The position numbers and the translations under genes are program-made. From a virus, in IMG/VR virus record IMGVR_UViG_3300032323_000936, positions 1 through 39,383 of that record: 39,383 bases of DNA; one strand, 5' to 3'. Under the pieces are notes generated by a model. The model was given only the letters and a program-made list of their open reading frames with translations, made no database searches and was not told where the DNA came from. Positions 20,966 through 36,137 of the stretch are shown one piece after another; within the stretch, counting starts at the first letter, position 1, and every line of letters starts with the position of its first letter.

Positions 20966-20969
20966 TCAC

Positions 20970-22334
20970 ATGCCAAGAAAACTTATACAAGGCACAGCAC
21001 CATCAGGTATATCTGCTCTAGGCGGTATTGCTATTTCATCAAGTACCTTATCCACTATTAGTACCAATCAGAATATTCTACTAAGCCCAGGCGGATCGGG
21101 CAACGTAGTAGTCCCAACGCCATTTAGAACTACCAATACTACAGGATCCACAGACAAGGACTCTGGCAGCATTGTCACCGAAGGTGGAGTGGGTGTTCAA
21201 GGCAGTGTATATGCCGGCGGCCTATTGCGTAGCACAGGTGGCCTTTCAAACACTATCATAGGAAATTCGTCTCCGGTAGCAGGTACATTTACTAATATTT
21301 CGTCCACTGGCACTACAACATTGGCGGAACATTCAGAAGCTGTGGCTACCAAAACTGCCGCCACTGGCACAGTGGTGCACGACTTCACAGAAAGCAATCA
21401 ATGGTTACACACCAGCATAAGTGCTAATTTCACAGTGAATTTAACCAATGTACCTACTACAGATAATCAGCTGTATACTATAGTCTTGTATCTTAGCCAA
21501 GGAGCCACAGGTAGGTTGGCCACTGGTTTTCAAATAGATGGAGTGGCACAGACCTTGCTGTACAGCGGCAATGCTTTGCCACGTGCAGGCACTAATAGTT
21601 TTGACACGCAGACATTTACTCTGATACGTTCTAGCGGAGCATGGCGTGTGCTAGTATCACTTACTGTAAATTCTACAACATACCCAGGAACGTCGGCAGC
21701 AAACCCTGCACCGTCAGGCTACTGGCTGGCACAGAACTTAAGAACTCCGCTGAGTTTGGCTTCGGGACTGTATTGGATAAGATCTCCTCTAATGCCCAAC
21801 GCACTACAGATGTATGTGGACATGACACAGGAAGACGGCGGTTATGATTTTTACCCAATCACTGGCGGAACAAGCATTAACTTTTACGGCGAAACACACA
21901 GCGGTCTGGCACTGGGATTGGATTTGGTATATCCTAGATCTCCACAGCATTGGCAGGCCATGCGCAATTATGTAACTAACGTGTTGGGTGATTCCGGTAA
22001 TGCCTTCTTTCAAACTCCGTATGTGGTATATCGAACAACCAGCGGTAGTTCCGGATCGAGGGGTGGTAACTATACTGGAGTAATCATGCGTGATCCAAGA
22101 TTTTACGGAACAGGCACATCTGACTGGCGTACTGGAGATGGCGGTCGTTGGTGGCTGAGAAACTCAACATTTGGAGAACCCAACGGTGACTATACAGCAC
22201 GAGCTTGGTTGGGTCTTGCCTCAGGCGGCTACAGTATGATTGGATATTCAGGTGGAGATATCAGCTTCAATGACGGCACAGCGAGTTATCTAACCGGTAC
22301 CAGTTATCTAGTATCAACAAATGCAAAACCATAA
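20970..22334 (+). CDS. Fibre protein with diverged fibrinogen-like domain, 454 aa (copy 2)
   Basis: Starts MPRKLIQGTAPSGISALGGI four bases after the previous stop. The middle domain (ATGTVVHDFTESNQWLHTSI, GFQIDGVAQTLLY) is close to the same region of the 22348 gene, also at DNA level. The C-terminal domain keeps SGLYWI and a YVDM box but has lost the Cys of YCDM and the GGGW motif (EDGGYDF instead). Its disulfide and possibly its fold have therefore changed relative to copies 1 and 3. Later sequence (PRSPQHWQAMRNYV, RTGDGGRWWLRNSTFGEPNG) is private to this copy. It is likely an alternative receptor-binding fibre; the ligand is unknown. Confidence 0.7.
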   Translation: MPRKLIQGTAPSGISALGGIAISSSTLSTISTNQNILLSPGGSGNVVVPTPFRTTNTTGSTDKDSGSIVTEGGVGVQGSVYAGGLLRSTGGLSNTIIGNSSPVAGTFTNISSTGTTTLAEHSEAVATKTAATGTVVHDFTESNQWLHTSISANFTVNLTNVPTTDNQLYTIVLYLSQGATGRLATGFQIDGVAQTLLYSGNALPRAGTNSFDTQTFTLIRSSGAWRVLVSLTVNSTTYPGTSAANPAPSGYWLAQNLRTPLSLASGLYWIRSPLMPNALQMYVDMTQEDGGYDFYPITGGTSINFYGETHSGLALGLDLVYPRSPQHWQAMRNYVTNVLGDSGNAFFQTPYVVYRTTSGSSGSRGGNYTGVIMRDPRFYGTGTSDWRTGDGGRWWLRNSTFGEPNGDYTARAWLGLASGGYSMIGYSGGDISFNDGTASYLTGTSYLVSTNAKP

Positions 22335-22772
22335 CGGAGAATAATCAGTGGGAAGAAAACTCATTACAGGTGTGGTAGGCGGATCCAGCAGTACAGGAAC
22401 CCTGGCTCCTAATGGCACCACAATAACGCCGGCCACAGCCAATACCAATCTAGTCTTTGACGCCAACGGCACAGCACAAACTGTGATAACCGGACCAGCG
22501 ACTATCAGCAATTCTTCGACCAGTACCGGCGTCAGCAGCGGAGCTGTTGTGGCATCGGGCGGATTGGGAATCGAACAGAATTTACATATAGGCGGATCAG
22601 CAGTCATTGCAGGCGGAGCGACTCTGCCTGTGGGCATAAGTCCTGCTACTCCAGCAGCAGGCACTTTTACTACGGTCACTGCTAACAGATTGATTTCTAA
22701 CGCTGTGTCTGAAGTATCTGCGCAAAAAACTAGTGCCACTGGCACAGTGGTGCATGACTTCACAGAAAGCAA
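21360..22772 (+). repeat. 38-nt near-identical duplication between fibre copies 2 and 3
   Basis: Positions 21360-21397 and 22735-22772 differ at one of 38 bases, across the TGTVVHDFTESN coding stretch. Copy 1 has a more diverged version near 19872. The conservation at DNA level points to recent duplication or gene conversion within the fibre array. Confidence 0.75.
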
Positions 22773-23820
22773 CATTTGGTACCACTCTAGTATAAGTGCC
22801 AACTTCACAGTCAATCTAACCAATGTGCCTACTACCAACGGTTTCTCGACCACAGTGTCGTTGATATTAGCACAGGGCGGCACAGCAAGATATGCCACTG
22901 GTTTTCAGATAGACGGTGTGGCTCAAACTGTGAGATTCCCCGGATTTATCGGCAGCTTTACACCTACTGCCAACAGAGTTGAAGTTCAAACCTTTGTATT
23001 AACTAGAATATCTAGTGCATGGATAGTGCGTACCTATTACAGTGTATTTGGAGAAGGCCTCGGCACAAGCCCGCTCACTGCTGCTGCCAGTGCCACAGCT
23101 ATTAAACTTGCAAATCCAAATGCCGCAAGCGGACTGTATTGGCTTCAACCCGCAACCTGGACTTGGCCAGCACTGTGTTACTGCGAAATGACGCTACACG
23201 GCGGTGGCTGGGTCTACATTATGCAGAGATTGTGTGCTAACGATCAAGGTCTGCCAGGTAGTTGGCTCACTGCACAACTAGGCGCTCCTAATCACACTGT
23301 GCAGAATTTTTATGGGGTTCGAGATCTATATAACAACGCATTGACTCCACAAGCTATGTGGAATGGTCTTATAGGCTCCGGCGGTTCCACAGGAAGATTT
23401 TTTGCTAGAGAAATACAGGTACGTACAGGCACAGCGGGCGGAGGCTATAGTGAAAGTCAACGCTATACATCCGTCTCAGACGGTCCTATATGGACCTATA
23501 CCACTTTCAGCAGACTGTTTTCAGGTAACTTTGCCAATGGTGTTTTTCAGGCCAATGTCAATGTGTATTTCGATAATGGATCCTCAGTGGTCACGGGTAG
23601 GGCAGGTACCACATGGTCAGCACCAGCACTAGCTACTATCAACAACGGTAACGTGGATCAGAATCTTTATTTCTGTAACGGTGAAGACGGCGGAGATGCA
23701 AACTGGAGTTTTGCCTTGATGAAAGGTGGTACACCGTATCCAAGACTGGCTGATCCTGCTAACGGTGGCGGTCGACATAACGATATAAGCAGATGGGCCA
23801 TAATAGGTATCAAAGCATAA
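22348..23820 (+). CDS. Fibre protein with C-terminal fibrinogen/intelectin-like domain, 490 aa (copy 3)
   Basis: GTG start at 22348 with GGAG eleven bases upstream, giving MGRKLITGVVGGSSSTGTLA. The shaft is short; the middle domain (ATGTVVHDFTESNIWYHSSI, GFQIDGVAQTVRF) matches copy 2 over long stretches. The C-terminal domain opens with SGLYWL, then CYCEMTLHGGGW, matching the G.YW(I/L)...YC(D/E)M...GGGW signature of fibrinogen-related domains, and continues with IMQRLCANDQG and GRFFAREIQV. In this family the domain binds sugars, often with Ca2+. A fibre-tip lectin role is inferred. The gene ends ten bases before the next fibre-like gene. Confidence 0.75.
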   Translation: MGRKLITGVVGGSSSTGTLAPNGTTITPATANTNLVFDANGTAQTVITGPATISNSSTSTGVSSGAVVASGGLGIEQNLHIGGSAVIAGGATLPVGISPATPAAGTFTTVTANRLISNAVSEVSAQKTSATGTVVHDFTESNIWYHSSISANFTVNLTNVPTTNGFSTTVSLILAQGGTARYATGFQIDGVAQTVRFPGFIGSFTPTANRVEVQTFVLTRISSAWIVRTYYSVFGEGLGTSPLTAAASATAIKLANPNAASGLYWLQPATWTWPALCYCEMTLHGGGWVYIMQRLCANDQGLPGSWLTAQLGAPNHTVQNFYGVRDLYNNALTPQAMWNGLIGSGGSTGRFFAREIQVRTGTAGGGYSESQRYTSVSDGPIWTYTTFSRLFSGNFANGVFQANVNVYFDNGSSVVTGRAGTTWSAPALATINNGNVDQNLYFCNGEDGGDANWSFALMKGGTPYPRLADPANGGGRHNDISRWAIIGIKA

Positions 23821-23830
23821 GGAGCTAGGC

Positions 23831-25039
23831 ATGTCATTTTTTAACAAGTATTCTGCAAAATTAGCCGGAACGTTACAGGAAACAAATAGTCCTGGATTTA
23901 CCGGCACAGACGCAGACGGCAGCGCAATTGGTAATAGAACTACTACCAGCACTCTAGGAACTTTTACCCCACTACCCGATCCGTTTGGTCGTGGAAGAAC
24001 TGTGTTTAATTTGTCTGGTGAAATTCCTTCGCAAGTAACATTTAATCAATCAACAGGGGTGATCACACTAGCTGCTTCTTTCGGAGCGATCAACAGTGCG
24101 AACCGTGTGTATAATCTCACCGTGACGGCATCAGAAATCAGTCCCAATAGTGGAAGAATTCGTGCAGTGGCCCGAGCATTTAATTTTAATCTTGCTACAC
24201 CTTTTAAATTTAGACAGGTAGTAACTACCAGTTATATGGTAGGCGGTTATCAAAACAGTACTTTATGGAACAACTGTAATAGAACTGTACATGCAACAGA
24301 TGTTACTACAAATCTAGGAGACGGATGCGTACAAAACTTCCACTACAAATCTGGTTGTGTGAACAACAGCAAGGTGTTTATATGGAGTGACTCATATGTC
24401 ACAGCATTTAACATGAGAACAGAAGTTCGATCAGATTCTGGCAATATTAATTTTACTGGAGCGAATACAGGAACCATTCAAGATTCGGAATTCCGCTTTG
24501 CCTGGATCAACGGTGAGGGATGCGGGCAGGTTAGGAAATGGACCATTGCCTCCGAATCAATAACACAGAATTTGGGCAACGGATGGAACGATCACGCTGC
24601 AGCCATACAAGGTGAAACCAAAGGTATATGGTGGGGGAATTCGGGCCAAACGGCTAGAATGATCTATGCAACTGATTCCTACGCTGCTATGGGATACAGT
24701 GCCGGTGCTCACGGTCAGCAGAAAGGACTTAATTCCAAAGACGGTAAAGGGTATGGCGGCAACGAGGGCAACTACAACGGTGGTAATATTTTCCGCATAA
24801 CCAATATTGAAACCGAATCTAGCATAGGAACTGTAACTAAACCTATGACAAACATGGGCGAAGAAAATTACGTACACGGACAGGACAAAGGATATTGTCT
24901 GGGACAATATGACGGTGCTCAAAATAATAGATCGTTTATTTTAACCTATGCTACTAACACTGGATTCGAAACCGGTTCAACCACACAACCTAAAGGCAAA
25001 GGCGGATGTAGCTCAGGACATTGCGGCTTTAGAGATTAA
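23831..25039 (+). CDS. Fibre-like protein with Ig-like start and kelch-like repeats, 402 aa
   Basis: Starts MSFFNKYSAKLAGTLQETNS with a GGAG site eight bases before the ATG. Residues about 25-110 resemble a putative Ig/cadherin-like domain (GEIPSQVTFNQSTGVITLAA, then YNLTVTASE). From about residue 130 there are kelch-like segments: YMVGGYQNSTLWNNCNR, AMGYSAGAHGQQKG, GYCLGQYDGAQNNRSF. These suggest a small propeller. The extreme C-terminus is Gly- and Cys-rich (GKGGCSSGHCGFRD), unusual for a fibre and a possible metal or disulfide tip. The next gene has its own late box, so this ends the fibre unit. Function as a receptor-binding or accessory fibre is inferred. Confidence 0.6.
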   Translation: MSFFNKYSAKLAGTLQETNSPGFTGTDADGSAIGNRTTTSTLGTFTPLPDPFGRGRTVFNLSGEIPSQVTFNQSTGVITLAASFGAINSANRVYNLTVTASEISPNSGRIRAVARAFNFNLATPFKFRQVVTTSYMVGGYQNSTLWNNCNRTVHATDVTTNLGDGCVQNFHYKSGCVNNSKVFIWSDSYVTAFNMRTEVRSDSGNINFTGANTGTIQDSEFRFAWINGEGCGQVRKWTIASESITQNLGNGWNDHAAAIQGETKGIWWGNSGQTARMIYATDSYAAMGYSAGAHGQQKGLNSKDGKGYGGNEGNYNGGNIFRITNIETESSIGTVTKPMTNMGEENYVHGQDKGYCLGQYDGAQNNRSFILTYATNTGFETGSTTQPKGKGGCSSGHCGFRD

Positions 25040-25071: not shown

Positions 25072-25920
25072 ATGTCCACAGAAATTGAGCAACATAACGA
25101 TAACAAATTTGCCACGTATCATAAAAGCGAATTAACCACAAATGTACATACCAATACTGAATTATTGTCACAGGAACAGAAAGACATAGTGGCATTTGCA
25201 GTAAACAAAGCATGGATTAATCCAAAATTTAAAATGAAGTATTTTCAAGCTGAAGAACAGCTAACTCCATTTCATAAACTAAGACAGCTGATGTTGGAAC
25301 TGCGAGCTTCTGAAGAATCCATCGAGCAGATCGAGTATGTAGTTGAAAAACTATCTACAGAAGTTGAAATAGTCACAATTAAAATTTCAAGAGCTACCGA
25401 TGAATTAGAACAAAAAGAATGGCAACTAAAATTGGTAGAATTAAAGAAAGATCTAGCACAGGCCAAACGCAGAGTCACGCATCAATATATTGAACGACAT
25501 ATGTATCTTGATCTAATCAAAGAATATAACGACGATCCCGAAAACCGCACAGTAGATGGGCAAAGTCTAATGACTGTGTTTAATACTCCTTTAGAAGATC
25601 AATACGAAAAACAATATTGGGTAGTTAGATTTGCCAAGCAAGCAGCTATGGATATGTTATCCTATGGAAATATTAGTGCAGGAAATCTAAGTTCTATTGT
25701 AGTGTTACCACCCGAACTGCAAGATGAAATTTATAAGATTGCCCATCATTACACTGTTGAAATGAAAGCACATCAAGAAGAAATACGCGATCAAATGACT
25801 AAACAAATTGAAGCAGAAAAGAAAATGATTAACATGCCCGAAGTAAAAAAAGATCAAAATACCAAAATTAAAAAGATCACACCTCAAGATGGAGATTTAG
25901 AAAATGTATATAATTTGTGA
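25072..25920 (+). CDS. Coiled-coil protein of unknown function, 282 aa
   Basis: Starts MSTEIEQHNDNKFATYHKSE. A long helical, probably coiled-coil stretch (about residues 65-140) is dense in Glu, Lys and Leu. The C-terminal tail (about 225-282) is Lys/Glu rich and probably helical. No signal peptide, membrane segment or catalytic motif is seen. Its late box, AGGAG site and position after the fibres suggest an assembly or chaperone role for fibres, or a minor virion protein. That is inference only; I do not recognise the family. The end overlaps the next gene by 17 bases, so the two are translationally coupled. Confidence 0.6.
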   Translation: MSTEIEQHNDNKFATYHKSELTTNVHTNTELLSQEQKDIVAFAVNKAWINPKFKMKYFQAEEQLTPFHKLRQLMLELRASEESIEQIEYVVEKLSTEVEIVTIKISRATDELEQKEWQLKLVELKKDLAQAKRRVTHQYIERHMYLDLIKEYNDDPENRTVDGQSLMTVFNTPLEDQYEKQYWVVRFAKQAAMDMLSYGNISAGNLSSIVVLPPELQDEIYKIAHHYTVEMKAHQEEIRDQMTKQIEAEKKMINMPEVKKDQNTKIKKITPQDGDLENVYNL

Positions 25921-26464
25921 AACCTTAGCAGGTAACGATCCAAGATATACATCTGATCTAGAAAGAATTTATAGTCATTGGATTTACACTGCCTACTATA
26001 GTCCAACGCCGTTGGATCTCGAACTTTATGATGCAATAGAAGTGCCAGAATCAGTTGCACGATCTATGAAATTTGCCAATGTAAACAAAGGAAAAATAGG
26101 ATTGCGAACAGGCTCTTTGGCACATGAAGAAGTGTTTGGTAACAGCACAGAAGCTGACGGTACTAAAACATACTACTACATCAACGAAAGCGAAGAAGCA
26201 GAAACTGTAGAACTGCTTAAAGTTGAAATGTTGTTGCATTTGAGAAAACACTACAGAGATATTCTAAGTGAACAAAAAAGAAACGATTTAAATCCTAAAA
26301 AAATTGCAATTGAAGCGGAGATAGCTGCCTGCGATACGTTAATTAACACAAAAATTTTAATGCATAAAAAATTCGGAGTTGATTCTTTACACGGAGCACT
26401 TACGGTATATAATCTAGGACCAGCTGCATATGACTTGTCAGAACCCGGTCTTGGAAACTACTGA
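25904..26464 (+). CDS. Conserved-looking protein of unknown function, 186 aa
   Basis: Starts MYIICETLAGNDPRYTSDLE inside the end of the previous gene and ends GLGNY. The N-terminal half is mixed alpha/beta with aromatic residues (IYSHWIYTAYYSPTPLDLEL). The C-terminal half (about 105-160) is helical and charged (LLKVEMLLHLRKHYRDIL, then IEAEIAACDTLINTKI). No catalytic, metal or membrane signature is visible. It overlaps both neighbours, by 17 bases on the left and 35 on the right, which argues for one polycistronic unit of 25072, 25904 and 26430. The nature of the unit suggests virion assembly or fibre modification, but I assign no function. Confidence 0.55.
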   Translation: MYIICETLAGNDPRYTSDLERIYSHWIYTAYYSPTPLDLELYDAIEVPESVARSMKFANVNKGKIGLRTGSLAHEEVFGNSTEADGTKTYYYINESEEAETVELLKVEMLLHLRKHYRDILSEQKRNDLNPKKIAIEAEIAACDTLINTKILMHKKFGVDSLHGALTVYNLGPAAYDLSEPGLGNY

Positions 26465-27041
26465 AAAATTTTTAGAAGTAAGCGACTTCTTAGATTTACA
26501 ACAGCAACTAATTCTTGTTAAATGTTTGTTGCACCCAAGTTTTCCCTGGGCACTGACTACCAACGCGGTAAAGGGAATTACAGATAATTTTGATTTAACT
26601 TCAACTGATACCATTGGCATGTTTCACACGTTTTTATATAACGGAGAAATTTGTTCGCCGTACTATAAAGAATTAGATTGGATGTTTAACGAATTTGAAA
26701 AAATTGGGTTAAAAAAAGATCAATGCATTCGAGTAAGAGCAGGTCTCTTTTTTAAACATCCCGATCATTCTCCCCATCTGTGCCATGTAGATGCTAAACT
26801 TCCGCACACTACTGCGGTGTACTATGTCAATGACTGCGATGGCGATCTAGTAATCTACAATGAAACCTATAAATCGCACCCTTGGACAGCCCCATTGATT
26901 CCCACTGAATTATGTAGATTTAGTCCAAGCAAAGGTAAACTAGTTGTATTTGATGGTAAACATTATCATAGCAGTTCATATCCGAATTTGACTTCGTTAA
27001 GATTAGCTATCACATTTAACTTTTTGCACAACAGCGGTTAA
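26430..27041 (+). CDS. Fe(II)/2-oxoglutarate-dependent oxygenase, prolyl-hydroxylase-like, 203 aa
   Basis: The C-terminal half carries the full facial triad and the 2-oxoglutarate anchor of the double-stranded beta-helix oxygenases: H119-V-D121, H180 (in GKHYHSSS) and R191 (in TSLRLAITFNF). The segment between fits the prolyl-4-hydroxylase-like layout (TAVYYVNDCDGDLVIYNE, then SPSKGKLVVFDG). Members couple 2-oxoglutarate decarboxylation to hydroxylation of proteins or small molecules; the substrate here is unknown. The ATG at 26430 lies inside the previous gene; the only other nearby option is TTG at 26451. It ends next to the late box of the enzyme cassette and just after two unknown genes, and a fibre with collagen-like triplets lies 6.7 kb downstream. 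Confidence 0.8.
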   Translation: MTCQNPVLETTEKFLEVSDFLDLQQQLILVKCLLHPSFPWALTTNAVKGITDNFDLTSTDTIGMFHTFLYNGEICSPYYKELDWMFNEFEKIGLKKDQCIRVRAGLFFKHPDHSPHLCHVDAKLPHTTAVYYVNDCDGDLVIYNETYKSHPWTAPLIPTELCRFSPSKGKLVVFDGKHYHSSSYPNLTSLRLAITFNFLHNSG

Positions 27042-27060: not shown

Positions 27061-27990
27061 ATGGATCATCAGTTGTACAATAATCAAAATAATTCTAACG
27101 ACATTGATAAAATAGTAGATTTTTACAATCAGTGGCCATATCCAGAATTACAGAACACGGATCTAAAAAAACTTGCAGACAACGGTTTTAGAGACAAATC
27201 AGATCCTGAGCATAATTGGAAAAAATTCTTTCAAAATAAAACACAAAAAACTTCAATAGATGTATTAGTAGCCGGCTGCGGAACGTATCAAGCCGGACTG
27301 ATTGCAATCAAAAATCCGTATGCTAATGTAATAGGATTTGATGCATCTAAAACTAGTATAGAAATGCAACAGTCAATGTGTAATCAAGCAGAATTAACAA
27401 ATGTAGAATTATGCACTTCGTCTATCTTAGAGTTTCAATCTGATAAACAATTTGATTTAATAGTGTGTAGTGGGGTACTGCATCATACAGATGATCCTTT
27501 AAATAATTTAAAAAAACTTAGAAAACTTTTAAAAAACGACGGTGTACTATCGTTATCAGTGTATAATGAAGCACTACGAACTGGCGTCTATAAAATTCAA
27601 AGTTTAATCAAACTGCTTAATTTAAACACTTCTATTGAAAGTGCAACTATGATTTCAAATCTATTGCATCAACTACAAAATCATAGCTTAGAAAAATACA
27701 TACGTAAAAATCCAGAATTGGCTCATTTAAATAATTTTATTGACACATTCTTTAATCCAAGAGAAATTAGTTATAATCCAGTGTCATTATTCAATCTAAT
27801 AAGCAAAGCAGATTTATTTTTCGTAAGCTGGCTAAACGATAACTATAATATAGAAACACAGCTATCATCGGACCATCCCCTATATACCGAAATTAGCAAA
27901 TTGTCAGAAATTGAAAAAGCATATAGTATTGATCTAATCAAAGAAAATAATGTTACTATAGATATAGTACTCGCAAAAACTGCAAGTTAA
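27061..27990 (+). CDS. SAM-dependent class I methyltransferase, 309 aa
   Basis: The Rossmann-type motifs are in order: motif I DVLVAGCGT at 67-75, the acidic residue ending beta-2 at D94 (VIGFDAS), and the 'LIVCSGVLHHTDDP' motif IV/post-region at 133-146. These are typical of methyltransferase_11/25-type enzymes. The N-terminal 'FYNQWPYPELQ' (about 21-31) is a segment seen before such domains in some sugar or small-molecule methyltransferases. The C-terminal third is helical and may form a lid. It is the first gene of the cassette and is nine bases from the next gene. The substrate cannot be told: a small molecule, glycan or protein are all possible. Confidence 0.8.
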   Translation: MDHQLYNNQNNSNDIDKIVDFYNQWPYPELQNTDLKKLADNGFRDKSDPEHNWKKFFQNKTQKTSIDVLVAGCGTYQAGLIAIKNPYANVIGFDASKTSIEMQQSMCNQAELTNVELCTSSILEFQSDKQFDLIVCSGVLHHTDDPLNNLKKLRKLLKNDGVLSLSVYNEALRTGVYKIQSLIKLLNLNTSIESATMISNLLHQLQNHSLEKYIRKNPELAHLNNFIDTFFNPREISYNPVSLFNLISKADLFFVSWLNDNYNIETQLSSDHPLYTEISKLSEIEKAYSIDLIKENNVTIDIVLAKTAS

Positions 27991-27999
27991 GAGAATAAT

Positions 28000-29670
28000 A
28001 TGAGAAAAATTTTTAGCATACCACTTAATCCAAAATTAAATGAACAACAATTCAATGAATTTTATGAATTTTGCAAACAGTATAAAGATTGGATTTATGA
28101 CATTTACTTTACAAGTCGTATCGCACCTTTTAATCAAGACGCGATGGGAGATATCTTTATCTTACAAGAAGATACTTCTAGCCTTATAGAAAATGCTTGG
28201 AATATACAACAACATTTGGGTATACCTATCAGTGCAACATTCAACAATACCACAGTACCGCCAACACAAAAAAACTTAGATACATTCATTAAGAATTTCA
28301 AACCGTTGTATGATGCAGGGATACGCAATGCAACAATTCCTCACACACATTGGATGGCTACAGGACAGCTCAAAGCTGCTTTTCCTGAGTTATTTGTTAA
28401 AAATACAATTTTAAGAGATGTTAACACAGCGGTGGAAGTGGTAAATCTAGCCAAGAGTGGATTTGATTATATAAATCTTGACAGAGATCTAATGCGGGAT
28501 AGAGATACACTGCTGAGATTGAAAGAAGCCAAGCGATGGATCAAAACAAATTTACACAAAGATATTAAATTTAGCCTACTAGCCAATGAGGGATGTTTGG
28601 GTGCCTGTCCTATGATGGTAGAACATTTTGAATACAACAACACAAGAACCGGAGATAATCCACAGTATTTCAATGATCCTATCAGTCGAGTGAGCTGCCC
28701 AAAGTGGGAAGTAGATGACCCTGCTGTGTTTTTAAAAACTGCAAATTTCAGTCCATGGAAAGAAGATTGGGATGAGTATCTAGATGTACTTGGAATAGAT
28801 GTTTTTAAGATGCATGGTAGAGAAAGCATAGATCGATTAGAAGAAACAATGACTTTGATTAAACGATATGCAGCAGATGAGAAATTTGTTTGGGGTACTT
28901 TTGAGAAATGGACCGAAGAATGTCAACTTCAAGAAAGACCAATACAAGTGTGGCGAGATAAAATACGTAACTGTAAATTTGATTGCTGGGAATGCCAGTA
29001 CTGTGATAAAATTCATGAAAAGAAAAGTCCGTATGATTACTCAGACATTATTAAACACGTGGCGCAATGTGTATTAGATTCTGGTGTGCCAAAAATAAAA
29101 AATAACATTCCTGGCCTTACCAGCATGAGAGTACAAACTTTGTTGAATTCGATCGCTAAGGGAGTGGGAACTTATCTAGAAGTTGGCAGCTATCTAGGAG
29201 CAACCGGGTGTGCAGTGCTGGAAAACAATGTGTTGAATGCCAACTTTGTGGACAATTGGAATCAAGATCTTCAGCCTAACTCTAACGATCTACAGTTGGA
29301 CGCCAATAACAAACAGAAATTTTTAGAAAATATTGAAAAACACAAAGGAATGTCTAATGTCCAGGTATTTGACTGTGATATTTTTGCAACGCCAATTGAA
29401 TTATTGCACAATCAGATTCAAATGTTTTTTTACGATGGTCCGCACGACCGACAAACAACCAAAGAAGCAGTGCAGTATTTTTGGAGTACATTCACAAACG
29501 AAGCAGTGTTGATATTCGATGACGCTAATTGGGAAGGTGTTATAGATGGAGTAAATGAGGGTATTGCAGACATGAACGGAACTATAGCTTATAAAAAAGC
29601 CATATTGAATGACGAGGAAAGCAGTTCGGAGTGGTGGAATGGTATATACATTGTCGTGGTAAAAAAATGA
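28000..29670 (+). CDS. U32-like Fe-S domain fused to a SAM methyltransferase, 556 aa
   Basis: The N-terminal part (about 1-345) resembles the peptidase-U32/UbiU-type TIM-barrel family. It has strand-like IYDIYFTSR and ISATFNNTTVPPTQ, a barrel-type 'FDYINLDRDLMRDRDTL', and the family-like NEGCLGACPM, here with C199 and C203. Further cysteines are C233 and a C-terminal cluster C325, C329, C332 and C335, enough for an Fe-S cluster. The C-terminal part (about 375-556) is a class I methyltransferase (YLEVGSYLGATG at 392-403; FYDGPHDRQTT from 477). In U32 proteins studied, such barrels take part in hydroxylation or RNA modification chemistry. The fusion is unusual and the substrate unknown. The stop overlaps the halogenase start. 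Confidence 0.55.
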   Translation: MRKIFSIPLNPKLNEQQFNEFYEFCKQYKDWIYDIYFTSRIAPFNQDAMGDIFILQEDTSSLIENAWNIQQHLGIPISATFNNTTVPPTQKNLDTFIKNFKPLYDAGIRNATIPHTHWMATGQLKAAFPELFVKNTILRDVNTAVEVVNLAKSGFDYINLDRDLMRDRDTLLRLKEAKRWIKTNLHKDIKFSLLANEGCLGACPMMVEHFEYNNTRTGDNPQYFNDPISRVSCPKWEVDDPAVFLKTANFSPWKEDWDEYLDVLGIDVFKMHGRESIDRLEETMTLIKRYAADEKFVWGTFEKWTEECQLQERPIQVWRDKIRNCKFDCWECQYCDKIHEKKSPYDYSDIIKHVAQCVLDSGVPKIKNNIPGLTSMRVQTLLNSIAKGVGTYLEVGSYLGATGCAVLENNVLNANFVDNWNQDLQPNSNDLQLDANNKQKFLENIEKHKGMSNVQVFDCDIFATPIELLHNQIQMFFYDGPHDRQTTKEAVQYFWSTFTNEAVLIFDDANWEGVIDGVNEGIADMNGTIAYKKAILNDEESSSEWWNGIYIVVVKK

Positions 29671-31181
29671 AAATTATAAAAGCAAATAGAATAACAATCT
29701 TTGGTGGCGGAACAAGCGGCTGGCTTACTGCAGCTTATCTCGTAAACAATTTAAAATTTCCATGTGAAATTACTCTGATAGAAAGTACTGTACTCGGACC
29801 CATCGGAGTTGGTGAAGGTACGCAACCCGCCACTACTAGATTCATGTATGATGCTGGTATTCCTCCAAAAACATGGATGCAACCTAGTAATGCTGTATTT
29901 AAATTTGGAGTGGAATTAGATGGGTGGACCGATGCCCCATATTTTGTAGATAATGATTTTATTGAAAATACAAAAATTACAAAAAGTTTTTACACCACGG
30001 ATTACTTTGTAAATCGTCCACCAAAAGAATTTTTTGATTGGTTACCTGCCTATGTCATGGCAAAAGCCAATAAAAGTCCTAAGCTAGGTGGATACGATAC
30101 AAACTTTGGTTTTACCGATGATAGACAGTTTGGTGCTGTGCATTTTGCAGCATTTGACATAGTAGATACTTTGAAAAAAATAATCGGAGACAAAATAAAA
30201 TATTTTGATACTAAAGTAACTGATGTAAAAGTAGATAACGAAGGTATACAAAGTTTAATTGATCAAGAAGGAAGAGTCCACACCGCAGATCTGTTCATTG
30301 ATTGCAGCGGATTTGCCAGTGTATTGTTAGAAAAAAATCTAGGAGTTGAGTTTCAATCAGTCACTGACATCTTGCCTTGCGATCGAGCAGTAGCCATGCC
30401 TACACAATATGTAGACGCAGAAAAAGAATGTCATCCGTATACCAAAGCCACCGCAATGACGGCAGGATGGCGCTGGACTATTCCAATCTTTAATCGTATA
30501 GGCAACGGATATGTTTACAGCAGTAAACATATCACACCAGAAGAAGCAGAAAAAGAATTAAGAAATTCTATTAACGAATACACTGCCGAAGCCAGACATC
30601 TTGAAATGAAATGTGGAATTCACAAAGTAGTCGCACATAAGAATGTGGTAGCAGCAGGCCTAAGTGCAGGATTTGTAGAACCATTAGAAGCTACGGGTAT
30701 CACATTCACTACAAAAGCTGTAGAAATACTCACAGGCGTTCTCAATCAGAATCAAGGCATATGGAATAACAGTGGTAAAAGTACATTAAATGATATCTAT
30801 GATAGAGCATTTTGGGAGATTGTGGCATTTATATGGATACACTATCATTTCAGCACCAAAAAAGACACAAAGTTTTGGCAGGACATTCACAGACAAAGTG
30901 CTGAAAATATTCCGCCAAGGGTTTTAGAACTAGTAAATCAATTTTTCCCATCACCGTCGAACAAGTTTTTTATATACCCCGAAAGCAATTTTCACGTGGG
31001 ACATTGGTTTAGTGTACTACATGCCGGCGGAGTATATAAAAATCACCCGCCGATACTCGACGGTGATCAAGAAAAATACGCTGAATATTTTGTAAAGAAT
31101 AACAGATTTAGATGTCAACAGGTATTGGAAACTTTTCCTAATCATTATGCATTTTTAAAATCTTGGTATGAAAATAAATGA
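29667..31181 (+). CDS. FAD-dependent halogenase, PrnA/VirX1-like, 504 aa
   Basis: The FAD-binding GGGTSGW is at 13-19. The halogenase signature W-R-W-T-I-P is at 268-273. The catalytic Lys equivalent to PrnA K79 is at residue 79 (NAVFKFG). The catalytic Glu equivalent to PrnA E346 is at 341 (EPLEATG). Known members use reduced flavin, O2 and halide to form HOX, which travels to the Lys; the cyanophage Syn10 enzyme VirX1 iodinates many substrates. The true start is the ATG at 29667, overlapping the previous stop as ATGA; an upstream in-frame ATG at 29631 would add 12 residues inside the previous gene. No separate flavin reductase is seen in the window, so host FADH2 is likely used. Substrate and halide preference are unknown. 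Confidence 0.88.
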   Translation: MKIIKANRITIFGGGTSGWLTAAYLVNNLKFPCEITLIESTVLGPIGVGEGTQPATTRFMYDAGIPPKTWMQPSNAVFKFGVELDGWTDAPYFVDNDFIENTKITKSFYTTDYFVNRPPKEFFDWLPAYVMAKANKSPKLGGYDTNFGFTDDRQFGAVHFAAFDIVDTLKKIIGDKIKYFDTKVTDVKVDNEGIQSLIDQEGRVHTADLFIDCSGFASVLLEKNLGVEFQSVTDILPCDRAVAMPTQYVDAEKECHPYTKATAMTAGWRWTIPIFNRIGNGYVYSSKHITPEEAEKELRNSINEYTAEARHLEMKCGIHKVVAHKNVVAAGLSAGFVEPLEATGITFTTKAVEILTGVLNQNQGIWNNSGKSTLNDIYDRAFWEIVAFIWIHYHFSTKKDTKFWQDIHRQSAENIPPRVLELVNQFFPSPSNKFFIYPESNFHVGHWFSVLHAGGVYKNHPPILDGDQEKYAEYFVKNNRFRCQQVLETFPNHYAFLKSWYENK

Positions 31182-31783
31182 TAGTGCAAAAAGAGATTCT
31201 TTGGCCGATTGATTTTAGAAAATACTCTGTTGAATTTACCGAGTGCAAAAAATATCTGCTTGACCTACTAGAGAATTTAAAAGAGCTTGGATTTAATAAT
31301 TCAGCTGATCTCCAAGGCAACACCACAGTCAACGGTTTTCAACCAGATATAGATATTTTGAGTATCTCCGACCCGATAATAGATAAAATAAAATCTGAAA
31401 TTATTGAACCCATAAGTGAAGAATTTTGGCAAAGTTTAAGAAAAGATAGAATTTCAGATACAGAAAACTTAAAATTAATTCACAAAGCGTGGCTAGTAGA
31501 ATATAAAGAAGGCACATATCAAAATCTTCATGTGCATAAGACAAGCCTTTTTACTTCTATATGGACTATATATTGTGATCCGCAGCAGCCCAAGGCCGCA
31601 CAACTGCATCTTCATAATCCCATAACAGAAAGTTGGGCTTTAGGTTTTTTTCAAGAAACTATAAAAATCAACCCTGAACAAGATGTCATTTACGTTTTTC
31701 CTGCTTGGATTGCACACAATGTTACACCATCGACCGCCAGACGTGTGGTATTTGTTTGGGATACCATTGCGGTTCCTGCTTGA
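31178..31783 (+). CDS. 2OG-Fe(II) oxygenase-like (Oxy_5 type), HxH motif, 201 aa
   Basis: Start overlaps the halogenase stop (ATGA). The C-terminal half has the double-stranded beta-helix layout: W105-LVEY, H118-V-H120, SIWTIYCD, LHLHNP, then EQDVIYVFPAWIAHNV with H180 and a final R188/R189. This resembles the putative 2OG-Fe(II) oxygenase family often seen in marine phages. The usual Asp/Glu of HxD/E is His here, so iron ligation or even activity is uncertain. A TTVNGFQ segment at 49-55 recurs as TTVNGWQ in the 33155 protein, showing the two are paralogs. The partner and substrate are unknown; gene order suggests it acts on the same molecule as the halogenase. Confidence 0.65.
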   Translation: MIVQKEILWPIDFRKYSVEFTECKKYLLDLLENLKELGFNNSADLQGNTTVNGFQPDIDILSISDPIIDKIKSEIIEPISEEFWQSLRKDRISDTENLKLIHKAWLVEYKEGTYQNLHVHKTSLFTSIWTIYCDPQQPKAAQLHLHNPITESWALGFFQETIKINPEQDVIYVFPAWIAHNVTPSTARRVVFVWDTIAVPA

Positions 31784-31788
31784 ATAAA

Positions 31789-32373
31789 ATGAATTCACGA
31801 GCCATCACACTGCATAGAGCAGATTTATTTCTTGATAATGTTGGCACAGTAGACCAGCGACAGCAATTAATCAAAGAAATAAAAGATATTCAAACTGAAC
31901 ATCCAGATGGCACAGCTCGAACCAACCTAGGATGTTGGAGATGGAACAGGCCTAGTGTGGATATTAGTTGGTTGATGCCGAATATAATGAAAATGTTAGA
32001 TAATGCTGTAAAGTTTTATGATTCGGAAGATGCAGTGTTTTCTAATATGCGTGAATTAGATTTAGTACAAATAGACTATTGGGCAAATATCAATCAATCG
32101 GGCAGTAGAAATACCGTACACAATCACAAAACCGCGCAATTTAGTGCCGTATACTATCTTCAAGCAGAAGATACAGGAGGATTGGTGTTTTACAATGCTG
32201 CAGATATCATGTCAGACTGTAACGCAGGTTCACCTTTTGTGAGACAATATAGAGTCAATCCAACAGACGGTGATCTACTATTATGGCCTGCATGGGTGCC
32301 GCATGAAGTAGAAACTAATTTTTCAGATAAAGAAAGAATAAACTTGGCCTTTGACATTAAAATTAAATACTGA
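31789..32373 (+). CDS. 2OG-Fe(II) oxygenase-like (Oxy_5 type), HxH motif, 194 aa
   Basis: The ATG at 31789 is chosen: an upstream in-frame ATG at 31705 gives a Cys-rich stretch that lies wholly within the previous gene. Motifs: YWANINQSGSRNTVHNH with H111 and H113, SAVYYLQAED, GGLVFYNA, then DGDLLLWPAWVPHEV with H172, and R183 before NLAFDI. This is the clearest match of the set to the putative 2OG-Fe(II) oxygenase family with H.H....SGVYYL. Again the second triad position is His rather than Asp. It is five bases after the previous stop and two before the next start. Hydroxylase, halogenase-like or non-catalytic scaffolding functions are all possible. Confidence 0.7.
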   Translation: MNSRAITLHRADLFLDNVGTVDQRQQLIKEIKDIQTEHPDGTARTNLGCWRWNRPSVDISWLMPNIMKMLDNAVKFYDSEDAVFSNMRELDLVQIDYWANINQSGSRNTVHNHKTAQFSAVYYLQAEDTGGLVFYNAADIMSDCNAGSPFVRQYRVNPTDGDLLLWPAWVPHEVETNFSDKERINLAFDIKIKY

Positions 32374-32375
32374 TC

Positions 32376-33158
32376 ATGCGTAAAATAACATTCTTCACAG
32401 TAGTTGACGGAGTAGCCGATGCTTTTCCTGTAGCACATTCACGTGAATTTAAATTTGATTGGGTAGCTGCTGTAAAAAACAGCTATAAATCAAAAATGGA
32501 AAAAAACAAACACACACGGTTTAATCATTTAGCAAGGTGCCCGGGTGTGTTTGATCTTTTGAATACTGGCTACATTATTCCTATGCCTTGGGATCTTACT
32601 ATCGAGACAGACGGCGATATGCTAAATTTTGCATGGCACATGCCCTCTAAAGATATCGAAGATTTATTTAACACTCCCCTAGTCACTGGTCACATGCCAA
32701 ACGGCATAGCTGAACACCTTCCAACAAGACCGTTTAGTCTCGAATCTATTATAAAATTAAATACCCCTTGGCATATTATAGCACCGCCCGGAGTAAAGTT
32801 CATTATGATTCCTATTCCCTATCCTGATAGTTTTGAATTTGAAAATGTCATAGGAACGTTAGATCCATCTGTGAGCAGTGAAATAAATCTACAACTAAGA
32901 TGGAACGTTACAAATGGTATACATACCATCAAAGCAGGCACGCCGATGGTTCAATTGATTCCGCTTACCGATGAAAAATTCCAATTAGAAGTTAGAAATC
33001 AAACTGAAAAAGACAAACAATGGATTTTAAAGAGAAGATATCTTAATAACTGCACTTTCTTTATGAACCGTTCATTGATATCGAAAATATATCACAAGTT
33101 TCATATGCGAACTGATATTATAAAAGTGTTTCTAAAAAAGATACTACAAACAAAATGA
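32376..33158 (+). CDS. Protein of unknown function in the halogenase cassette, 260 aa
   Basis: Starts MRKITFFTVVDGVADAFPVA. The middle is beta-rich and could be a jelly-roll: GYIIPMPWDLTIETDGDML, then PWHIIAPPGVKFIMIPIPYP and HTIKAGTPMVQLIPLT. The sequence 'C(P)G..D..NTGYIIP' at about 55-68 reminds me of uncharacterised families found beside 2OG oxygenases, but I cannot name one confidently. The C-terminal 40 residues are basic and helical (RTDIIKVFLKKILQTK). No HxD/H triad is apparent, so it is probably not an oxygenase; a binding or accessory role is possible. Its stop overlaps the next start as ATGA. Confidence 0.55.
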   Translation: MRKITFFTVVDGVADAFPVAHSREFKFDWVAAVKNSYKSKMEKNKHTRFNHLARCPGVFDLLNTGYIIPMPWDLTIETDGDMLNFAWHMPSKDIEDLFNTPLVTGHMPNGIAEHLPTRPFSLESIIKLNTPWHIIAPPGVKFIMIPIPYPDSFEFENVIGTLDPSVSSEINLQLRWNVTNGIHTIKAGTPMVQLIPLTDEKFQLEVRNQTEKDKQWILKRRYLNNCTFFMNRSLISKIYHKFHMRTDIIKVFLKKILQTK

Positions 33159-33679
33159 AATACAACATGTTTATAACTGAAGTGTTTAAAGGACAGATAT
33201 CGTTGCCTTCGAATATAACTGATAGTTACGCACAGTGGGCTACATTTGAAAAAACACTAGATCCCGTGGGTGTGTCGGCAAGCACCACTGTTAACGGATG
33301 GCAATATGCTTTCAGCACAGGTGAATCTGCGCCAGCGTGGCTAGAATCTCTGATGCCCAGTATCAGCAAAATTAAAGCAGAAATTGCCTATAACACCATA
33401 AAAAGCATGTGGACCGTTGATTACGAAGTTGGGGGGTTTCAAGATGCTCATTTTCATCAACCCGGAAACAATTTATACACAATTATTATAAATTTATCAG
33501 GACAGGGCGAATTGATTTTATTTGATCCGCGACAATTAGCCACCGCACACGGCGAAAGTATTTCTAAAATCGAAATATTAAATCCTGGAGACTGGATAGC
33601 TTTGCCCTCTTGGTTGGTACACGGCACACGTCCTAGCTTAAATCGCCGAAATATATTGGTTATGGATGTTAATAAATAG
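33155..33679 (+). CDS. 2OG-Fe(II) oxygenase/cupin-like protein, HxH motif, 174 aa
   Basis: Shorter member of the same group as 31178. TTVNGWQ is at 44-50; WTVDYEVGGFQDAHFH gives H99 and H101; then TIIINLSGQGELILFDPR, and GDWIALPSWLVHGTRP with H156 and R164/R165. The layout (H.H, a central strand pair, then P.W..H and a terminal Arg) fits a double-stranded beta-helix oxygenase, but the expected acid in HxD is missing. It closes the enzyme cassette, with two ATAAATA boxes at its end and just after it, before the next fibre gene. Substrate unknown. Confidence 0.6.
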   Translation: MKYNMFITEVFKGQISLPSNITDSYAQWATFEKTLDPVGVSASTTVNGWQYAFSTGESAPAWLESLMPSISKIKAEIAYNTIKSMWTVDYEVGGFQDAHFHQPGNNLYTIIINLSGQGELILFDPRQLATAHGESISKIEILNPGDWIALPSWLVHGTRPSLNRRNILVMDVNK

Positions 33680-33719: not shown

Positions 33720-36137
33720 ATGACAACAAACGCTCTTTCTGTAAAAAACCTTAGACTACTACCTGCAGATACTGGATTTTTAGATAGAAAAATTGGTAGC
33801 AGCGGTGAAATTTTTTATGACCGCACAGACAATACTATTAGGTATTTTGATGGGACCACTCAGGGCGGCACCGCATTGGCCATTGACGATTTATCCAATG
33901 TATCAAAAACAGCATTTGTTAGTTTAGCAAGCACATCTGGATTGTTTGGTCCAAACATTCATATACATAATACTGTTGTAAACAGCAATTTGCCTTCGGG
34001 CGATAAAGACTATGTAACGTTTACAGTGGGTACCAATGACATCACAGCATTGTACCTAACAAAATACATAGGTGTTGACCTAAAAGCCTTCTTTGCTATC
34101 CAAGAAGGTGATGCATGGACTGCTGGTGAAAATGTCAATCAAATGTTAACCTACGGGCATCTTGGTCCATGGGACCCGTCGCTTGCCGTTGGAAGTAACA
34201 TATTAGCCGGGAACCCATTAAAACCACAAGCTGTGACATTAACAGCAAATACTACATATACCGTGTGGATTCAACAAACTGGATCAAACATTACAGAATA
34301 TGCCCTTAGCACAAATCCTTATTGGGTGCCGGCAACTGCAGATCTTCCTGCAAACTATTCAGGCGATCCTGCCAATCCAACTATACTATATCAAGACGGT
34401 GCAGGACAAGGTGGACAACTGACACTAGTGGCAGGATCAAATATAACTATTACTACTGATCCTATTACCGATGTTACTACCATAGCTGCTACCGCGGTAG
34501 CATCAAACAGTTTCACTACTATTGCTGTAGCAGGTCAATCCAACGTTGCAGCAGATTCTACCACGGATACGCTGACATTGACGGCAGGCACTGGCATTTC
34601 AATTACTACTAATGCTGGTACAGACACCATAACAATCACCAATACGGGTACCAGCCAAAATACCTTCAACACCGTGGCAGTGGCAGGACAAAGTTCGGTG
34701 GTGGCAGATTCCGCCACAGACACTCTTACGCTTGTCGCTGGGTCTGGTATTACTCTAACTACCGATGCTAGTACAGACACCATTACTATCACAGGCACAG
34801 CCAGCACAGGTAACATAACTTTTGTGGCCAACATCATAGACAGCATAGATAGTTCTGCAATTACATTTACTCCTAGTGTGGTCTTTGAAAGCGATATCAC
34901 AGTAGGAACAGACATTGTGTTTCCTGATGGATCTAGGCAAAGTACTTCTGCTGTAGGAATACCAGGACCTCAGGGTCCAGCGGGACCTGCCGGTGCTACT
35001 GGTGCAGGAACTGGTGATGTTATTAGTGCCGGGGGCGGCTATGTTGATAACGCTATCATACGATATGATGGTGTAACAGGAACTATTATACAGAACAGTT
35101 CTGCAACTATATCAGATGCTGGACTACTTACGGCTACAAATTTTAGTGGTGGCGGTGCGGCGCTTACTGCATTAAACGCTACTCAATTAACTTCTGGCAC
35201 AGTACCAGATGCAAGATTCCCAGCAACATTACCAGCGGCAAGCGGTGCTAATCTCACAGCACTGAATGCTTCAAACTTAGGCAGCGGTACTATACCAGAT
35301 TCACGGTTCCCAGCAACATTACCAGCGGCAAGCGGTGCTAATCTCACAGCACTTAACGCCACTGAATTAACTTCTGGTACCGTTCCAGATGCACGTTTTC
35401 CAGCTACATTACCTACAGCTAGTGGAGTAAATCTCACAGCACTGAATGCTTCGAACTTAGGCAGCGGCACTGTTCCAGTTTTGAGACTAGGCGCATCCGG
35501 CACTAGAGACGCTACTACGTTCTTGAGAGGTGATAATACATGGGCTACGACTGGTGGATCAGTAAATAGTTTCAGCATTATAGACGTAGCAGGACAAGCT
35601 CAAATAGAAGCCGACACTACCAACGACACATTGACATTAGTAGCAGGTGCTAATATAACAATAACCACCAGTCCTCTAAGCGATACAATTACCATTGCTG
35701 CTGCCAGCGGCGGTGTTAGCACGTTTAGTGCGTTAACTGAAGCAGTATCCGCTTCTTTAACTATAGATGAAATATATCTACAAGCCATCACTAGATTAAT
35801 AGTGACCAATAACGGCAGTTTTTCCTATCTCTTCGATCAATATTCCGGAGAAAATCCCACTATATATGCCATAGCCGGAATGACCATTGCTTTTAATTTG
35901 AATGTTCCAGGCCATCCATTTTTGATACAGGACGGCACCGGTACAAATTATAGCACTGGACTAGTACATGTCAGCACTTCTGGAGTAGTCACTACCGGAG
36001 CAGCAGCACAAGGTCAAGTGTTTGGTACACTATATTGGAAAGTACCAGCAAGTATTTCCGGCGGCTACAGATATCAATGTTCTGTTCATCCAGTGATGGT
36101 CGGTGCAATAACTGTCAAGGGTATTGTCAGTCTATAA
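33720..36137 (+). CDS. Fibre protein with collagen-like triplets and C-terminal amicyanin-like copper site, 805 aa
   Basis: The N-terminus MTTNALSVKNLRLLPADTGF followed by GEIFYDRTDNTIRYFDGT is a fibre-docking type. Two related 'VAGQS..ADS.TDTLTL' modules lie at about 265-370 and a third (VAGQAQIEADTTNDTLTL) near 623. Six G-X-Y triplets (GIPGPQGPAGPAGATGAG) sit near 414-431. A 30-residue tandem repeat with PDARFPATLPAASG and LTALNA spans about 478-588. The C-terminal domain (about 680-805) ends YRYQCSVHPVMVGAITVKG: with H732 in GHPFLIQ, the ligands C787-x2-H790-x2-M793 reproduce the spacing of the type I copper site in amicyanin. It is a late fibre; metal binding at its tip is predicted, not shown. 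Confidence 0.78.
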   Translation: MTTNALSVKNLRLLPADTGFLDRKIGSSGEIFYDRTDNTIRYFDGTTQGGTALAIDDLSNVSKTAFVSLASTSGLFGPNIHIHNTVVNSNLPSGDKDYVTFTVGTNDITALYLTKYIGVDLKAFFAIQEGDAWTAGENVNQMLTYGHLGPWDPSLAVGSNILAGNPLKPQAVTLTANTTYTVWIQQTGSNITEYALSTNPYWVPATADLPANYSGDPANPTILYQDGAGQGGQLTLVAGSNITITTDPITDVTTIAATAVASNSFTTIAVAGQSNVAADSTTDTLTLTAGTGISITTNAGTDTITITNTGTSQNTFNTVAVAGQSSVVADSATDTLTLVAGSGITLTTDASTDTITITGTASTGNITFVANIIDSIDSSAITFTPSVVFESDITVGTDIVFPDGSRQSTSAVGIPGPQGPAGPAGATGAGTGDVISAGGGYVDNAIIRYDGVTGTIIQNSSATISDAGLLTATNFSGGGAALTALNATQLTSGTVPDARFPATLPAASGANLTALNASNLGSGTIPDSRFPATLPAASGANLTALNATELTSGTVPDARFPATLPTASGVNLTALNASNLGSGTVPVLRLGASGTRDATTFLRGDNTWATTGGSVNSFSIIDVAGQAQIEADTTNDTLTLVAGANITITTSPLSDTITIAAASGGVSTFSALTEAVSASLTIDEIYLQAITRLIVTNNGSFSYLFDQYSGENPTIYAIAGMTIAFNLNVPGHPFLIQDGTGTNYSTGLVHVSTSGVVTTGAAAQGQVFGTLYWKVPASISGGYRYQCSVHPVMVGAITVKGIVSL
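35154..35485 (+). repeat. 90-bp in-frame tandem repeat in the 33720 fibre
   Basis: About 3.7 units of 90 bp (30 residues) run through this stretch. For example the block starting TTCCCAGCAACATTACCAGC at 35217 recurs exactly at 35307 and continues identically for more than 40 bases. Period and frame are kept, as in a fibre shaft that can lengthen or shorten by recombination. It is not a CRISPR: there are no unique spacers. Confidence 0.85.

Follow-up and report, generated by a model that had tools for sequence, protein, structure and literature searches.

The stretch of viral DNA considered here (the window) is a linear fragment of 39.4 kb, 39,383 nucleotides in full, that makes up IMG/VR record IMGVR_UViG_3300032323_000936. 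On its plus strand, at 29667..31181, lies a gene for a flavin-dependent halogenase of 504 amino acids, followed by genes for 2-oxoglutarate (2OG)-Fe(II) oxygenase-like proteins and a DUF6065-like protein. An earlier note on this DNA had given the open reading frame (ORF) with exactly these coordinates and had placed it in a phage late operon; it starts with ATG and is found in a run of codirectional phage tail genes. A GTG upstream, at 29631, would merely lengthen the ORF, and alignments of homologues begin at the ATG. The companions of this gene, together with the adhesin genes that accompany related phage halogenases, point tentatively to the phage's own tail tips as the substrate.

The halogenase and its clade

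The ORF is genuine and encodes, at full length, a tryptophan-type (variant-A) flavin-dependent halogenase. It matches PF04820 (Trp_halogenase) with 323 bits against a cutoff of 21 (E = 4.1e-96, residues 8 to 460), phrog_2928 with E = 3.3e-99, and about 30 halogenases in the PDB at E < 1e-35, so the assignment is not due to chance. The diagnostic motifs listed in the earlier note are all present (GGGTSGW at 13-19, F78-K79, WRWTIP at 268-273, and E341 in EPLEATG), and in alignment with PrnA (in a sequence identical to 2apg across all 538 residues) they correspond to G12-W18, K79, W272-P277, and E346. That note had also proposed a structural test, and in its fold part an AlphaFold2 model built from 30 homologues shows a halogenase fold of the flavin adenine dinucleotide (FAD) type (predicted local distance difference test score [pLDDT] of 92, predicted template modeling score of 0.91). 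Fold comparison gave Z scores of 44.7 for PyrH, 42.8 for PrnA, 40.8 for RebH, and 39.0 for VirX1; the top 48 structures are all variant-A (PF04820-type) enzymes (Z, 44.7 to 37.5), and the next is CndH at 25.2. The window enzyme shares its fold, FAD motif, Lys79, Glu346, and WxWxIP with PyrH, PrnA, and RebH but is only about 28% identical to them and lacks the tryptophan-pocket residues His101/Phe103, Ser347, and a biosynthetic cluster. Its C-terminal stretch, which in PrnA forms the lid of the tryptophan pocket, comprises 71 residues, compared with 75 in VirX1 and 83 in PrnA, and the shortening is consistent with the open pocket described for VirX1 (PMC7948982).

More than 589 stretches in IMG/VR are related to the window halogenase. 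In a quick tree of 195 rows, built without bootstrap and with bacterial rows limited to the best 80 matches, 114 phage enzymes and 1 bacterial enzyme form one group (Shimodaira-Hasegawa-like approximate likelihood ratio test [SH-aLRT], 97), and the window enzyme remains among the halogenases. The earlier note's view of it as a relative of VirX1, from cyanophage Syn10 (PDB 6QGM), holds to the extent that both are variant-A phage enzymes with Lys79 and the glutamate, lie in the same mostly phage clade, have a shortened lid region, and are followed by DUF6065 and 2OG genes. The relationship is, however, distant (31% identity over 431 aligned columns), and the window clade (20 tree rows; SH-aLRT, 97) is a branch separate from the 20-row clade of VirX1 (SH-aLRT, 98). 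Moreover, VirX1 retains Ser347, a YPF segment, and an upstream glycine-rich adhesin, whereas in the window enzyme the serine is alanine and the segment reads YFVDND, and the tip genes of the window are of other kinds. That the window enzyme represents a new subfamily within a known kind of halogenase is well supported. The halogenases of Pelagibacter phage HTVC008M and Prochlorococcus phage P-SSM2 share its Glu-Ala-Thr motif (Ser347 to Ala) and have 2OG genes nearby but are only 27 to 29% identical to it and lie in other gene contexts. Relatives also occur in human fecal phages MT835646.1 and MT837902.1 and in four Campylobacter phage records.

The active site was compared across 49 halogenases that each adjoin the same backbone gene (phrog_1458). 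The equivalents of Lys79 and Glu346 (PrnA numbering) are invariant in all 49. PrnA Ser347, which the earlier note did not mention, is replaced by alanine in every case (Ala342 in the window enzyme), and PrnA Ala50 is likewise always glycine; PrnA His101 has no counterpart, the region reading YFVDND or similar, and Phe103 is not kept. The second tryptophan of WxWxIP, present in the window, is phenylalanine in 25 of the 49. Because Lys79 and Glu346 are invariant while these other positions have changed, the substrate side has been remodeled in the window clade with the catalytic residues retained, and halogenating activity is predicted. Ser347 does not define the family, since 42 of 118 aligned phage enzymes also carry alanine there. 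Ratios of nonsynonymous to synonymous substitution among related clade members are about 0.05 to 0.22 (about 0.06 in the closest pairs), resembling those of the neighboring backbone gene, and halogenase distances track backbone-gene distances (r = 0.88, n = 49); the gene has been kept and coinherited with the tail region.

The source is a large aquatic virus of bacteria. The gp3-like protein of the window finds its nearest matches in the jumbo phages Phosso, PA5oct, and Atu_ph07, and psbA is absent from seven relatives of the window, so that a cyanophage origin was rejected. Contigs of relatives reach 245 kb (L013, halogenase positive) and 331 kb (L148, halogenase free).

An accessory cassette between tail genes

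In the window clade, the gene order runs from tip genes through phrog_1409, a conserved unknown, in some cases a 2OG gene, phrog_1458, the halogenase, a 2OG gene, the DUF6065-like gene, and another 2OG gene to the gp3 operon. The earlier note had called this neighborhood distinctive; instead, it recurs in dozens of environmental phage contigs. In halogenase-free relatives phrog_1458 runs straight into the gp3 operon, so the halogenase, 2OG, and DUF6065 genes constitute an accessory cassette at one site. Genes for 2OG or DUF6065 proteins are present in 47 of 47 halogenase-positive related loci versus 5 of 25 halogenase-negative ones (P = 1.7e-13, a nominal value because the compared loci are kin). 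In the full set of halogenase loci, both 2OG genes (62 adjacencies versus 41 expected) and DUF6065-like genes (21 versus 7.4) neighbor halogenases more often than in any permutation.

The window contains all three components of the cassette, and the several oxygenases to which the earlier note drew attention prove to be conserved companions. Downstream of the halogenase on the same strand are 2OG-Fe(II) oxygenase-like genes at 31178..31783, whose start overlaps the halogenase stop (PF13759, 6e-8; phrog_81, 4e-18), at 31789..32373 (PF13759, 1.2e-17; phrog_81, 3e-30; the ORF opens with TTG at 31705, and 31789 is the first ATG), and, with weak similarity, at 33155..33679 (phrog_81, 2e-5). Another lies upstream at 26430..27041 on the plus strand (phrog_274, 3e-32; PF13640, 1.7e-4, below the cutoff); the label DNA endonuclease V, attached to phrog_274 here and in many cyanophage records, is probably a misannotation, given the weak similarity to 2OG oxygenases.

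The DUF6065-like protein (phrog_7084; 32376..33158, plus strand), a recurrent companion of phage halogenases, is predicted by AlphaFold2 (pLDDT, 90) to have a dUTPase-like fold (Z to dUTPase, 10.6), and DUF6065 is present in 5 of 30 homologues. In Syn10, the corresponding gene lies directly 3' of VirX1 and overlaps it. A role for the protein as a flavin reductase was rejected, the fold search having returned dUTPase-like folds. Cys55 is invariant in DUF6065-like proteins (window, 32376-33158; L006:10586-11374).

A methyltransferase, which the earlier note had counted among the partners, did not hold up as one. The class I S-adenosylmethionine methyltransferase gene at 27061..27990 (plus strand; PF13847, 1e-17) occurs in no other searched locus, and the protein at 28000..29670 (plus strand; phrog_1458, 4e-162), which joins a Cys-rich N-terminal part to a Methyltransf_24 domain and whose stop overlaps the halogenase start, is backbone, present in halogenase-free relatives as well. 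The phrog_1458 protein is found in 123 cyanophage records (best identity, about 43%), and its Cys-rich N-terminal region is invariant. Judged from its cysteines alone, that region is possibly U32-like; Pfam and PDB profile searches returned no U32 match for it.

The cassette is flanked on the far side by a baseplate/tail-fiber connector-like structural protein (33720..36137, plus strand; phrog_677, 1e-31), in which a short collagen-like stretch, GIPGPQGPAGPAGATGAG, is a possible prolyl hydroxylase target, and is bounded by a gp3-like tail sheath stabilizer (36903..38423, minus strand; phrog_11196, 2e-69, and phrog_227). On the near side are three tandem tail-tip-like proteins (19487..23820, plus strand), two of which have weak fibrinogen-C similarity below the cutoff (PF00147, 9e-4 and 1.5e-3) and one of which matches a virion structural PHROG; a further tail-tip-like protein (phrog_1417; 23831..25039, plus strand) that also occurs in halogenase-free relatives; and two conserved unknowns, phrog_1409 and an unnamed one (25072..26464, plus strand), between these tip genes and the cassette. 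The four tail-tip-like proteins are candidate substrates. Farther upstream, at 6088-11844, is a tail fiber of 1,918 amino acids with six CBM_5/12 carbohydrate-binding modules (PF02839, 2e-40).

Pairing of VirX1-type halogenases with adhesins

Among the most frequent neighbors of other phage halogenases are tandem glycine-rich tail-fiber proteins (Gly_rich_2, PHROG 863), which resemble gp38-type adhesins and carry Tyr, His, Trp, and Asn within glycine loops. In the Syn10 adhesin, W70, W91, Y149, Y164, H179, and H222-H235 are conserved. The order in annotated cyanophages is a fiber gene, two or three adhesin genes, a gene for a small protein, one or two halogenase genes, an optional DUF6065 gene, a 2OG gene, and a cupin/JmjC gene. 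Of the 13 complete genomes that encode a Gly_rich_2 protein, 9 have a halogenase no more than 1.5 kb away from its gene (random mean, 0.63; maximum, 4; 5,000 shifts). The reverse test, which starts from the adhesin, is stronger: metagenomic scans with three adhesin families found a downstream halogenase in 9 of 9, 11 of 11, and 43 of 43 loci (63/63 in total), a locus being counted only if its contig continued for 4 kb or more downstream.

Named phages give the same result. The Syn10-type adhesin occurs in 14 of 50,697 phage records and the S-RIM44-type adhesin in 6, and all 14 and all 6 are halogenase positive, although these are not independent events because many of the phages are closely related. 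The third family has strong matches in Sf-CH11 and Sf-CH1a, both halogenase positive, and a partial match (30%) in S-RSM4, which is not among the halogenase records listed. As a control, the fiber gene lying a few genes upstream matches 225 phage records, of which at most 66 can be halogenase positive. VirX1-type halogenases are thus in near-obligate pairing with glycine-rich adhesins, which suggests, without proving, posttranslational tailoring of receptor-binding tips.

In the Syn10 gp35-like fiber (L006:2917-3834), the first 139 residues match the 225 records, and the full-length or long matches among those listed are all to halogenase-positive phages. This pattern suggests that the distal half of the fiber is exchanged along with the adhesin and the halogenase. 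Two contigs, L062 (39.1 kb) and L072 (76.6 kb), carry arrays of five halogenases with 2OG and DUF6065-like genes adjoining three glycine-rich adhesin-like paralogues, and three or four halogenase genes each occur in L057, L064, L037, and L078. Proteins of the JmjC_2 family (PF08007), which contains known protein hydroxylases, are found near phage halogenases in seven loci, including L040:14848-15531.

Candidate substrates of the cassette

We favor, without holding it probable, the reading that the cassette chemically modifies the phage's own tail-tip (adhesin) proteins. Reduced FAD, supplied by a host reductase, would react with O2 and halide to give hypohalous acid; Lys79 would hold the active halogen, Glu341 would help to activate the aromatic ring, and chlorine, bromine, or iodine would be transferred onto it. 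In this way, Tyr, Trp, and His of the tip proteins would be halogenated and other side chains hydroxylated. The cassette is situated between the genes for the tail tip and the gp3 operon, and no glycosyltransferase or NRPS/PKS-type (nonribosomal peptide/polyketide synthase) gene was recognized beside the window halogenase. We infer the activity, the protein substrate, and, by analogy, the extension from VirX1-type loci to the window clade.

Several observations weigh against tip modification. In the window clade, no glycine-rich adhesin adjoins the halogenase, and the tip genes evolve fast, none being exclusive to halogenase-positive relatives, so that a fibrinogen-like adhesin was rejected as an exclusive partner. 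Since the tip genes of the window (19487-25039) belong to other families, the argument is weaker there and proceeds by analogy. The 63 adhesin loci are mutually related, each scan recovering just the close kin of its query, and the metagenomic control with the fiber gene likewise gave halogenase-positive loci only (24/24 full length, 35/35 N terminal); recovering close relatives only, it offered no contrast, and the named-phage control was therefore used. No partner flavin reductase (PF01613) was found in eight phage records. Elsewhere, halogenases lie in photosynthesis/hli regions (S-MbCM6, Syn1, and S-PM2), beside replication and recombination genes (S-B64), or among carbamoyltransferases, a heptose kinase, and sugar genes (S-SSM7). 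The dUTPase-like predicted fold hints at a nucleotide, and linkage in genomes is not the same thing as biochemistry.

The S-SSM7 neighborhood would suit a system in which halogenase and oxygenases assemble or modify a small compound or a glycan of the surface, such as a halogenated amino acid or sugar metabolite, and Iyer et al. (2021) proposed metabolite or capsule decoration for the halogenase/2OG cluster of the jumbo cyanophage S-SSM6a (PMC7824862). Those clusters, like the window, come from large phages and bring a halogenase together with 2OG oxygenases, but their sugar and carbamoyl transfer genes are missing from the window and were not recognized among the recurrent neighbors examined, and the VirX1-type order of adhesin, halogenase, DUF6065, and 2OG genes includes no assembly enzymes; we consider this explanation unlikely. 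An auxiliary metabolic role in halogenating free host tryptophan or indole, for pyrrolnitrin-like protection or signaling, is suggested by the name of the family, and free-tryptophan halogenation or cell protection is the role assigned in papers on cyanophage halogenases (PMC9964418, PMC9146016). It is improbable here in light of the shorter lid, the loss of His101/Phe103 from the window clade, and the conserved place beside tail genes, and published work describes VirX1 as an enzyme that favors bulky, diverse substrates and has no helical lid (PMC8407142, PMC7948982).

Halogenation might instead have been lost, with the protein now acting as a monooxygenase or surviving as an accessory without enzyme activity, as the clade-wide Ser347 replacement, the altered His101/Phe103 region, and the WRFTIP-type motif in half of the clade could indicate. 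Yet Lys79 and Glu346 are universally retained, purifying selection on the gene is strong, and alanine replaces Ser347 in other phage lineages too, including HTVC008M and P-SSM2, all of which makes such a loss distinctly improbable. A role for the cassette in altering nucleobases or nucleotides, the DUF6065 protein handling the nucleotide, seems highly improbable: the predicted fold, the annotation of one homologue as a triphosphate nucleotidohydrolase, and the acceptance of azaindoles by VirX1 speak for it, but the dUTPase match is remote (about 10 to 20% identity) and the cassette lies among tail genes rather than those of DNA metabolism.

Knowledge of viral halogenases goes back to the cyanophage genomes and VirX1, and papers differ over their natural substrate, assigning roles that range from free-tryptophan chlorination to capsule decoration. 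Among halogenase-positive phages, virion proteomes have been reported for S-CREM1 and S-SZBM1. Cyanophage 2OG enzymes have been tied to nitrogen status and DNA repair (Sullivan et al., 2010; PMC3037559). No link between phage halogenases and adhesins was found in open-access papers, most subscription journals lying outside the scope of the search. The fuller proposal, that halogenation and hydroxylation of the phage's own tail tips is an unreported virion modification and the native role of the cassette in VirX1-type and window clades alike, is more doubtful than tip modification as such. The most valuable outcome, short of proof, is that the adhesin pairing supplies a concrete, testable substrate hypothesis for viral halogenases generally. 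If that hypothesis is true, phages diversify their host-binding tips chemically, beyond the genetic code, and protein labeling would profit from halogenases whose substrates are folded proteins.

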